Source: Terriglobia bacterium (GTDB lineage Bacteria; Acidobacteriota; Terriglobia; Terriglobales; Acidobacteriaceae). From it: 64,000 nucleotides of DNA. Positions within the stretch are counted from its first letter, which is position 1. Each line of letters opens with the position of its first letter. The translations under genes were made by a program, and so were the position numbers. This document shows, piece by piece, positions 8,400-11,231 of this stretch. Below the pieces are notes generated by a model, which saw only the letters and a list, made by a program, of their open reading frames with translations, was not told the origin of the DNA and did not search any database. The stretch covers positions 124,001 through 188,000 of the forward strand of contig JAIQEU010000003.1 of the NCBI GenBank assembly GCA_020073665.1. The letters run 5' to 3'.

Positions 8400-9326
8400 A
8401 TGAAAAAGCTTTTGGTTCTGTGTGCGATCCTGGCTCTTGCCTCCTGCATGTTCGCGCAGGAAAACAATCGAATCCACATTACGCATATGTATGGTCTGGA
8501 CCCGCTGGCCGGGCAGCCGGCATCGACCATCACCTACAACGGAGGGCCGATCCTGAACGCGGGTGGCACATCCATCTACATCGTTTACTACGGAAAATTC
8601 ACTGCCAAAGATACCCAGATCATCAATTTCTGGGCCCAGAACATCGGCGCGTCGCAGCTCTACGCGATCAACACCACTTATTTCGACAGCACGTTCCTGC
8701 ACATTCCCGCGGGCCTCAACTTCAATCCGACGACCAACACCTTCAATGACAACTACTCGATGGGCAAGAACATCACCGATGCTCAAACCCAGGCGATCGT
8801 TGCCAACGCCATCAGCGGTGGACACCTGCCCAATGATCAGAATGGCGTCTACTTCGTGCTGACGGCGCAGGACGTCAAGCAGAGCTCCTCTTTCGGCACT
8901 TTCTGCGGGGTGTACTGTGGATACCATGGTCCTTCCACTTCCATCGTCGCGGGCGAAACTATCAAGTATTCGTTCGTGGGCAACGCGGCCACGCAGTGCC
9001 CCACCGGTTGCATCGGCAACGCGGCCGTTTTCGGGGATAGCACTAGCCCGAACAACGATCTCGGTGCCGATGGCCTGGTCAGCATCATGTTCCACGAGCT
9101 CTCGGAGAGCATGACTGATCCGGAAGTGAACCTGAAGACCGCATGGGCCGGCTCCTGCGGCGAAAACGGCGACTGCTGCAACTTCGTGTTCGGCTCGACC
9201 AAGATCGTGAAGAACGGCTCGCACGCGAACGTGAAGATCGGCAACAAGGCGTTCCTGCTGCAGGAAATGTTCAAGCTGACCCAGATGCAGCTGCCTACCG
9301 ACACCGGCACCTGCGCCCAGAAGTAA
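8400..9326 (+). CDS. secreted EXORDIUM-like (phosphate-induced protein 1 family) protein
   Basis: A 308-residue protein with a signal peptide (MKKLLVLCAILALASCMFAQ). The mature part follows the plant EXORDIUM / Phi-1 pattern (PF04674): an early YNGGPIL segment followed by a YIVYYGKF strand, a central YFVLTAQDV, a Cys-containing FCGVYCGYHG, SFVGNA, then DLGADGLVSIMFHELSE and TDPE. The segment His232-Glu233-x-x-Glu236 followed by TDP recurs in the second copy at 25.3 kb and could be a metal site (inference). Eight or more cysteines suggest disulfides and an extracytoplasmic location. Plant members are apoplastic and growth-related; the bacterial role is unknown. A strong terminator follows. Confidence 0.85.
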   Translation: MKKLLVLCAILALASCMFAQENNRIHITHMYGLDPLAGQPASTITYNGGPILNAGGTSIYIVYYGKFTAKDTQIINFWAQNIGASQLYAINTTYFDSTFLHIPAGLNFNPTTNTFNDNYSMGKNITDAQTQAIVANAISGGHLPNDQNGVYFVLTAQDVKQSSSFGTFCGVYCGYHGPSTSIVAGETIKYSFVGNAATQCPTGCIGNAAVFGDSTSPNNDLGADGLVSIMFHELSESMTDPEVNLKTAWAGSCGENGDCCNFVFGSTKIVKNGSHANVKIGNKAFLLQEMFKLTQMQLPTDTGTCAQK

Positions 9327-9378: not shown

Positions 9379-10527
9379 CTAGCGAAGGGGCCGGAAGAAC
9401 TCGCGGACATCGTTCACCAGCAGTTCCGGTTCCTCGCAGGCCGCAAAGTGGCCCCCACTGGGCATCTCGGCCCAGTGCTGGATGTTGTATCCGCGCTCGA
9501 TCCAGCATCGCGGAGGGAAAGGGTCTTCCTTGGGAAAATGCGCGATGCCGCACGGGACGCTCACGTACTCGCCTTTCTGGAAGTGCAGCGGGGCCCTCTC
9601 CACCTCGTAATAGAGGCGGCAAGAAGAGTGGATGGTCTGCGTCATCCAATAAAGCGTCACATTGCTCAATAGCTCATTGTCAGTAAATCTTCGCCGCAGG
9701 TCTCCGCCGCAGTCGGCCCAGTCGCGAAATTTCTCCAGGATCCACGCTGCCAGCCCGGCCGGGGAATCGTTCAAAGCGTAGGCCACCGTCTGCGGCTCGG
9801 TTGCCTGGACGTGCCCGTAGGCCCCAAAGTCCTGCTCCCAGCGGTTGGCGTCCTTGAGAAAGGCCTGCTCGTCCTGCGAGATGGCTGTTCCGGGACCAAG
9901 GTAGGGCAGGTACGAGCCCGGGATGTAGTTGAGATGAACTCCTACGATGTGCTCACGGTGACGCAGCCCGAGGACGCTGGAAACATTGGCCCCCCAGTCG
10001 CCGCCCTGCGCTCCAAAACGTCGGTATCCGAGCTCAGCCATAAGCCCAACCCACAGCTCGGCGATGCGAAATGTGTTCATCCCGCGCTGCGCTGGTCGAT
10101 CGGAAAAGCCGTATCCCGGAAGCGATGGCACGACGACATCGAACGAGTCTGCAGGGTCACCGCCATGCGCGGCGGGGTCGGTCAGCATGGGGATGATCTT
10201 CAACATCTCGAGAAACGATCCCGGCCAGCCATGAGTAATGACCAGAGGCAGCGCCGAGGGCCCTTTTCCCCGCTCGTGAATAAAGTGGATGCCAACACCC
10301 CCGTCCGTGTAGCGGAAATGGTGAAAGCGCGACATCTGTTCCACCTGGGCTTTCCAGTCGAACTGGTCCTTCCAGTAGGCGCAGATTCGCCGCATGTATT
10401 TGAGTTCGGCGCCGTACTCCCAGCCTGAGCTGGGAATTTCGTCGGGCCAGCGGGTCTGGGCGAGGCGGGCGCGAAGGTCCTCGACCGCGGCCTGCGAGTA
10501 GGGGAGGGAGAATGGTTGGACACTCAT
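9379..10527 (-). CDS. epoxide hydrolase (alpha/beta hydrolase with EHN domain)
   Basis: A 382-residue protein with an N-terminal EHN domain (residues about 4-115, beginning PFSLPYSQAAVEDLRARL) joined to an alpha/beta hydrolase fold. The oxyanion-hole motif is HGWPG at 99-103, the nucleophile is Asp177 in GGDWGA, and the C-terminal catalytic His is in GGHFAACEEPE. This is the microsomal/juvenile-hormone epoxide hydrolase type, which converts epoxides to diols. It is transcribed divergently from the CGNR regulator. Its promoter and ribosome binding site are embedded in a duplicated inverted-repeat element, so it is probably inducible. The natural substrate is unknown. Confidence 0.92.
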   Translation of the reverse strand: MSVQPFSLPYSQAAVEDLRARLAQTRWPDEIPSSGWEYGAELKYMRRICAYWKDQFDWKAQVEQMSRFHHFRYTDGGVGIHFIHERGKGPSALPLVITHGWPGSFLEMLKIIPMLTDPAAHGGDPADSFDVVVPSLPGYGFSDRPAQRGMNTFRIAELWVGLMAELGYRRFGAQGGDWGANVSSVLGLRHREHIVGVHLNYIPGSYLPYLGPGTAISQDEQAFLKDANRWEQDFGAYGHVQATEPQTVAYALNDSPAGLAAWILEKFRDWADCGGDLRRRFTDNELLSNVTLYWMTQTIHSSCRLYYEVERAPLHFQKGEYVSVPCGIAHFPKEDPFPPRCWIERGYNIQHWAEMPSGGHFAACEEPELLVNDVREFFRPLR

Positions 10528-10530
10528 GGA

Positions 10531-10562
10531 TGTAACCTCTTAAAATAATCTAGACGGTTACA
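10531..10562. promoter_or_regulatory. operator copy 1 (TGTAAC-N20-GTTACA)
   Basis: An inverted repeat with half-sites TGTAACC and GGTTACA. It begins three bases upstream of the hydrolase ATG and covers its AGAGG ribosome binding site. It matches copy 2 at 24 of 32 positions and has identical half-site spacing. Confidence 0.75.
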
Positions 10563-10589
10563 CTAGCGGAGTCGCCTGTAACCTGTCAA
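10560..10589 (-). promoter_or_regulatory. promoter of the epoxide hydrolase gene
   Basis: On the minus strand a perfect TTGACA (10589-10584) is followed after 18 bases by TAGTGT (10565-10560). The -35 lies inside operator copy 2, and the -10 touches the edge of copy 1, which would also cover the transcription start. This architecture suggests repression by occlusion. Confidence 0.5.
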
Positions 10590-10608
10590 GATGTACTAAA
10601 CAGTTACA
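10577..10608. promoter_or_regulatory. operator copy 2 (TGTAAC-N20-GTTACA)
   Basis: The second copy of the inverted repeat, 46 bases after the first and ending 20 bases before the CGNR regulator ATG. It has the same outer half-sites TGTAACC and GTTACA with the same 20-base gap as copy 1. Confidence 0.75.
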
Positions 10609-10628
10609 TCGGATCGTGGAAGCCCACC

Positions 10629-11231
10629 ATGTACTTTGAGTTTGTCGGCGGCAATCTGGCGCTTGACTTTGCCAACACCGTGCATAGCCACGGGCTTGCC
10701 GACCCGCGCGACGATCTGAAGACCGGACCCGACTTGATGGCCTGGGGCGCACAGGCGGGACTGGTGGGAGAACGCGACCGTGAGGGGCTATGGCGTCGGG
10801 CCCGCTCTCAGGCAGGTACAACTGAGCTGCAGCGGGCGCGAAAGCTGCGGGAAGTGATCTACCAGCTCTTCGCCGGAGTCGCTCGTGCCGGCCGTCCGGC
10901 TCCGGAAATGCTGGACGCATTCAACCCATTTGTACGCGAGGCCATGACCCGAGCCCGTATTCAGAAATCGGGGGAGAAATACGAGCTGGGTTGCGACCAC
11001 CGCGTCCGTCCGCTGGACCGGCTCCGGTTCGAAGTTACGCGGGCCGCCATGGAACTGCTGACTTCGGGAAAACTGGATAGGGTTCGGCAGTGCAGCGGAG
11101 AGACCTGTTCCTGGCTGTTCCTCGACACCAGCCGCAACGGCACGCGGCGCTGGTGCGATATGCAGGCGTGTGGGAACCGGGCCAAGGTCCGCAGGTTCCG
11201 GCAGCACCAGTCATCCGATCGAAAAGCTTGA
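10629..11231 (+). CDS. ABATE/CGNR zinc-finger regulator
   Basis: A 200-residue protein whose N-terminus (FEFVGGNLALDFANTV) is the start of the ABATE domain (PF07336). Its C-terminus is a CGNR zinc finger (PF11706): CSGETCSWLFLDTSRNGTRRWC, then ACGNR with the defining Cys-Gly-Asn-Arg and a basic tail. These proteins are thought to be transcription regulators combining stress-ligand sensing (ABATE) with zinc-finger DNA binding. Divergence from the epoxide hydrolase over paired operators makes it the leading candidate to control that gene. A TetR-like regulator elsewhere is the alternative, because two-fold sites of this length are more typical of HTH dimers. Confidence 0.9.
   Translation: MYFEFVGGNLALDFANTVHSHGLADPRDDLKTGPDLMAWGAQAGLVGERDREGLWRRARSQAGTTELQRARKLREVIYQLFAGVARAGRPAPEMLDAFNPFVREAMTRARIQKSGEKYELGCDHRVRPLDRLRFEVTRAAMELLTSGKLDRVRQCSGETCSWLFLDTSRNGTRRWCDMQACGNRAKVRRFRQHQSSDRKA

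Follow-up and report, generated by a model that had tools for sequence, protein, structure and literature searches.

Divergent, autoregulated repressor-detoxification pairs, of the TetR type and similar, combine a regulator gene and an enzyme gene that face away from each other, with dyad operators lying over both promoters. The pair analyzed here is likewise divergent, but its regulator, a CGNR protein, has a DNA-binding fold other than that of TetR-type regulators, and the half-sites found before CGNR genes have their centres 25-26 bp apart, the dyads mostly coming as a tandem of two. The enzyme carries an EHN domain (E 5.9e-34) and an Abhydrolase_1 domain, both above the Pfam cut-off, which is the same pair as in the EHN epoxide hydrolases; none of the NCBIfam models scored above its own cut-off, and by domain content we take the enzyme to be a putative member of the EHN-type epoxide hydrolase family.

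On the side of the regulator, the sole solved relative found by sequence and fold comparison is 3h0n (Jann_2411), for which the authors proposed in 2009 a dimer with a DNA-binding treble-clef zinc finger and the sensing of a ligand that was unknown to them (PMC2954205). DNA binding was thus proposed there, with no DNA site given in the parts of that report covered here, whereas we predict both a site and a rule for its gap. Among the matches listed in the open-licence literature, no DNA site was found for any CGNR protein.

The gene pair and its intergenic dyads

The features of the locus, numbered within the window (the whole stretch of 64,000 nt that was analyzed), are as follows.

9379 to 10527, minus strand: epoxide hydrolase family gene, EHN and Abhydrolase_1 domains, 382 aa
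10517 to 10546, plus strand: alternative CGNR promoter, TGGACA, spacer 18, TAAAAT, 10/12 matches, with its -10 inside copy 1
10531 to 10562, no strand assigned: putative operator copy 1, TGTAACC-N18-GGTTACA, distal to the CGNR gene
10531 to 10537, plus strand: half-site TGTAACC, from inverted-pair detection
10536 to 10541, minus strand: AAGAGG, an SD-like word within copy 1, 8 bases ahead of the hydrolase ATG
10556 to 10562, minus strand: half-site, TGTAACC on that strand, from inverted-pair detection
10560 to 10565, minus strand: likely hydrolase -10, TAGTGT, spacer 18, 3/6 to TATAAT, straddling the edge of copy 1
10577 to 10608, no strand assigned: putative operator copy 2, TGTAACC-N18-AGTTACA, proximal to the CGNR gene
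10577 to 10583, plus strand: half-site TGTAACC, from inverted-pair detection
10583 to 10610, plus strand: weak candidate CGNR promoter, CTGTCA, spacer 16, TACATC, proposed by analogy with the family
10584 to 10589, minus strand: hydrolase -35, perfect TTGACA, read from the sequence, inside copy 2, at a position kept in the proximal copies of the family
10603 to 10608, minus strand: half-site, TGTAAC on that strand, from inverted-pair detection
10629 to 11231, plus strand: CGNR regulator gene, ABATE and zf-CGNR domains, 200 aa

The regulator, which a preliminary description of this DNA had rightly placed divergent from the hydrolase, has an ABATE domain (PF07336; 70.9 bits, cut-off 24.4, residues 8-147) followed by a zf-CGNR domain (PF11706; 72 bits, cut-off 24), and the zinc-finger cysteines C155, C160, C176 and C181 are invariant across 7 aligned relatives. 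What it has in common with Jann_2411 are both Pfam domains, an alignment over the zinc finger (residues 151-194 with 3h0n, E 6.1e-6) and a fold match: Foldseek matched the structure model of the regulator (pLDDT 77.5, built from 7 sequences, with the zinc-finger part below pLDDT 50) to 3h0n with E 3.0e-6, TM 0.54 and rmsd 8.1, the sole fold match at E <= 0.001. Judged by this model, the regulator has the ABATE fold. Beyond the hydrolase gene, the window encodes at 8400-9326 on the plus strand a protein whose domain, Phi_1 (phosphate-induced protein 1), belongs to a family known mainly from plants.

The duplicated 32-bp element of the preliminary description was recovered in full, as two perfect matches to TGTAAC-N20-GTTACA that start 46 bases apart and agree at 24/32 positions (75%). 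The 20-base gap ascribed to it is correct between the 6-mers and shrinks to 19 once the left half-site is extended to TGTAACC; in the core notation used below, copy 1 is TAACC-N18-GGTTA and copy 2 is TAACC-N18-AGTTA. At up to two mismatches these are the only such sites in the window, while window shuffles gave a mean of 0.47 and 2 at most, with at least two sites in 7/100, and these shuffle counts tolerate mismatches where both real sites are perfect. The genome search that had been suggested for this pattern returned, at up to one mismatch in 5,422,947 bases, the two copies and no further site, against 3 for the reversed control. Because the 55 sites obtained in the genome at up to two mismatches fall below the 85 in the control, no wider regulon is visible with the exact pattern. 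The same pattern with a 21-base gap gave no perfect site.

Distribution of the dyad among CGNR genes

Absence of the motif beside orthologous gene pairs had been named beforehand as an observation that would count against an operator. The motif is present in L003 (a Terriglobia MAG; 54% identity, offset 46), L004 (an Acidobacteria MAG; 55% identity, offset 48) and L010 (54% identity, offset 46), each with a divergent hydrolase gene and two copies at gap 18, and the CGNR protein of the window forms a single clade with those of these three loci (SH-aLRT 99). A hydrolase-CGNR pair of another family (L080, EHN by Pfam) has a gap-18 dyad with one mismatch and a second dyad with two, and a Rhodococcus opacus plasmid (L170) carries a CGNR frame that faces away from a gene annotated as epoxide hydrolase, together with one exact dyad, GAACC-N10-GGTTC, and another that is nearly exact, at gap 9.

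CGNR homologues occur in 23/100 relatives, and zf-CGNR in 66/396 genomes of the phylum. From a set of 113 CGNR loci, nine were dropped (duplicate, truncated, masked or weak), and the 104 that were left came down to 89 after near-copy removal. When the 330 bp upstream of each CGNR gene were scanned for TAACC-Nk-GGTTA with up to one mismatch, 37/89 genes had a dyad at k=18 (shuffle mean 0.6) and 18/89 at k=19 (shuffle mean 0.55), with no shuffle above 2. Together, gap 18 or 19 precedes 54/89 non-redundant CGNR genes, split into 36/54 among loci known before the motif was set down and 18/35 among those fetched afterwards. Two other gaps rose above the shuffles at the same tolerance, 10 (10/89) and 8 (6/89), the remaining gaps giving 0 to 5; the control gaps 22/23 gave 0/89 and 13/14 gave 3/89. 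In the same loci, 91 dyads lie in 29,370 bases upstream as against 8 in 265,701 bases elsewhere, that is 3.1 versus 0.03 per kb. For eight half-site kinds, picked after the loci had been inspected, exactly symmetric pairs were found at gap 18 in 37/89 and at gap 19 in 13/89, with no more than 2 at any one of the remaining gaps from 4 to 30. Motif-free inverted 6-mers, a weaker test than the motif-based one, peak at gaps 16, 18, 19 and 20 (20 or 21, 15 and 21 out of 89, where shuffles give roughly 6). At up to two mismatches 69/89 CGNR loci score, a figure that we set aside as evidence because shuffles then give about 7 loci per gap.

The TAACC dyad at gap 18/19 and up to one mismatch is absent from 35/89 CGNR genes, many of which bear half-sites of another kind, AACACC/GGTGTT, with an unchanged gap. 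Nothing clear was seen upstream of some of these CGNR genes, for example those of L045, L051, L061, L062 and L088. Loci L118 and L129 have no clear element. The upstream region has GACACC-N9-GGTGTC in L056 and an inverted repeat, TATGTAATGG...TATTACATAA, in L103.

The genes adjoining CGNR vary and include EamA, SDR, DinB_2, glyoxalase, CAAX protease and alpha/beta hydrolase genes. As a control from the side of the hydrolase, 49 places yielded 30 loci, the window's own and 29 others, and no dyad was found in 29/29 of these hydrolase relatives without a detected CGNR gene in the locus, such absence being judged by a regular expression applied to the locus only. The dyad thus tracks the CGNR/ABATE regulator whatever the neighbour gene, and not the hydrolase; the preliminary description's operator reading, with the CGNR protein as probable binder, gains support, as a prediction, from this comparison across loci.

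In the genome of the window, a second CGNR gene (G000:C6:87946-88524, L032) lies divergent to an EamA transporter gene, and its dyad has a half-site variant of its own, TCACCATC / GATGGT, at gap 18; differing half-sites could keep the CGNR paralogues of this genome apart. An isolated dyad of the CGNR-operator type, TATAACCATCA-N10-TGATGGTTATA with a core gap of 18, occurs at G000:C10:417765-417796 (L171:2266-2297), 23 bases ahead of an ORF whose product resembles, as read by eye, an arginase-family protein. The ORFs listed in its surroundings (L171 1200-3400) include no CGNR-like one, and the dyad is possibly a distant target of a CGNR paralogue.

Judged by its named relatives, the genome of the window is probably that of an acidobacterium. 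Outside that phylum, 25 plasmid CGNR loci were hand-picked from two spread listings, one of 260 records and one of 234. Exact symmetric dyads precede 17/25 CGNR genes on these named plasmids from three other phyla, with gap 9 in 5 loci, gap 10 in 2, gap 18 in 8 and gap 19 in 3 (one locus counted twice; shuffle means no higher than 0.07 for each gap). Gap 18 occurs in Rhizobiaceae, Mycolicibacterium and one Streptomyces, gap 19 in Pantoea, Planococcus and Paraburkholderia, and gap 9 in other Streptomycetaceae, gaps of 9-10 being about one helical turn shorter than those of 18-19. Two loci not counted among the 17, from Cupriavidus (L126) and Sodalis (L169), each show a TAACT-GGTTA dyad with one mismatch at gap 19, and the weakest group, Bacteroidota L005-L008, has TTACC/GGTAA-like pairs at gap 18, labelled at up to one mismatch. 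It seems likely that the CGNR family uses one ancient code across phyla, in which TAACC-type half-sites, separated by 18-19 or 9-10 bases as set by the protein, usually lie in tandem over divergent regulator-detoxification promoters; the half-site types of this proposed code would be TAACC, but also TAACG, TCACC, AACACC and others.

Gap rule and promoter overlap

Among the 41 loci whose two copies lie 30-60 apart, the gap is equal within the locus in 40, 29 at gap 18 and 11 at gap 19, which 0/20000 permutations reached, and 56/99 dyads have symmetric bases beside the core (expected 30.3, maximum 47 over 10000), neither statistic being corrected for common descent. Mapped on the CGNR protein tree, which lacks L128 and L164 (no protein obtained), the gap classes require 13 changes against a shuffled mean of 25.0, with 0/200 shuffles as low, a few of the gap labels being chance matches (e.g. 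L026, L028, L115). This suggests that the gap is a property of the CGNR protein, the excess at gaps 8 and 10 being left unexplained by a simple gap rule. With half-sites 25 bp apart, or some 16 bp apart in the case of gap 9, the helical phase would stay nearly the same.

The dyads overlap both divergent promoters, of which the one on the CGNR side is weakly defined in the window. A perfect hydrolase -35 had been described inside copy 2, and TTGACA indeed reads there on the minus strand from 10589 to 10584. The companion statement, that the -10 and the ribosome binding site fall on copy 1, holds for the SD-like AAGAGG; the best -10 straddles the edge of that copy, and the hydrolase transcription start would probably lie on copy 1. 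The -10 hexamers of the hydrolase promoter and of the CGNR promoter proposed by family analogy are weak, with 3/6 matches each, and the promoter-like site at 10517-10546 looks better for the CGNR gene, which counts somewhat against the placement by analogy.

Across the family, the strict word TAAC[CT]TGTCA occurs in 32/41 proximal versus 2/41 distal copies of two-copy loci. Of 34 proximal copies selected because they contain a -35-like word, 22 have a -10-like hexamer (at least 4/6) on the plus strand, a signal partly due to the half-site itself, and 19 have one on the minus strand, whereas a shifted position gave 2 and 6. One dyad thus spans back-to-back -35 elements.

Proposed operator function and its meaning

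We are reasonably confident that the element represents tandem operators of the adjacent CGNR/ABATE protein, dimers of which would keep the two divergent promoters repressed and be released by a small molecule. Each operator would be a dyad whose half-sites, of core TAACC / GGTTA, keep a constant gap of 18, and each half-site would receive one zinc finger of a CGNR dimer. Copy 2 would mask the hydrolase -35 and, by family analogy, the CGNR promoter, while copy 1 would mask the edge of the hydrolase -10, the likely start region and the SD. Without inducer, RNA polymerase would be blocked both ways, amounting to autorepression together with hydrolase repression, and the regulator would then be released once its ABATE domain had bound a small compound, reactive or xenobiotic. 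That this compound is an epoxide is a guess from the neighbour gene.

Three other readings have to be weighed against these tandem CGNR operators. The proximal dyad spans the spacer between -35 and -10, as is the case in MerR systems, and a ligand-bound CGNR protein might accordingly activate the hydrolase promoter from the dyads instead of simply repressing it; however, the spacers are near normal (16-18) and copy 1 sits over the -10 edge and the SD, where a bound protein blocks, and we consider such activation unlikely. Dyad operators are also common to many regulator families, and those described here might serve another regulator, for example of the TetR type, that merely co-regulates the pair. 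This we judge to be quite improbable, given that the dyad accompanies CGNR genes with varied neighbours in several phyla, that its gap tracks the CGNR protein tree and that it is missing from the hydrolase relatives without a detected CGNR gene.

Nor does it seem at all probable that the pattern is mere shared promoter architecture, two divergent -35/-10 sets with no protein-binding dyad. Such an origin would agree with the TTGTCA/TTGACA borne by the proximal copies and with the -10-like hexamers at promoter spacing on either strand, but the distal copies retain the dyad with hardly any -35, the outer bases co-vary and the gap is equal in nearly all two-copy loci.

For tandem CGNR operators, then, the analysis predicts from sequence a DNA-binding site for a little-studied regulator family. 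The predicted site and gap rule would make the proposed DNA binding of the CGNR/ABATE family directly testable and CGNR regulons predictable from sequence, and the divergent genes examined, which are largely those of transporters and small-molecule-handling enzymes, may offer a pointer to the ligands of CGNR proteins.
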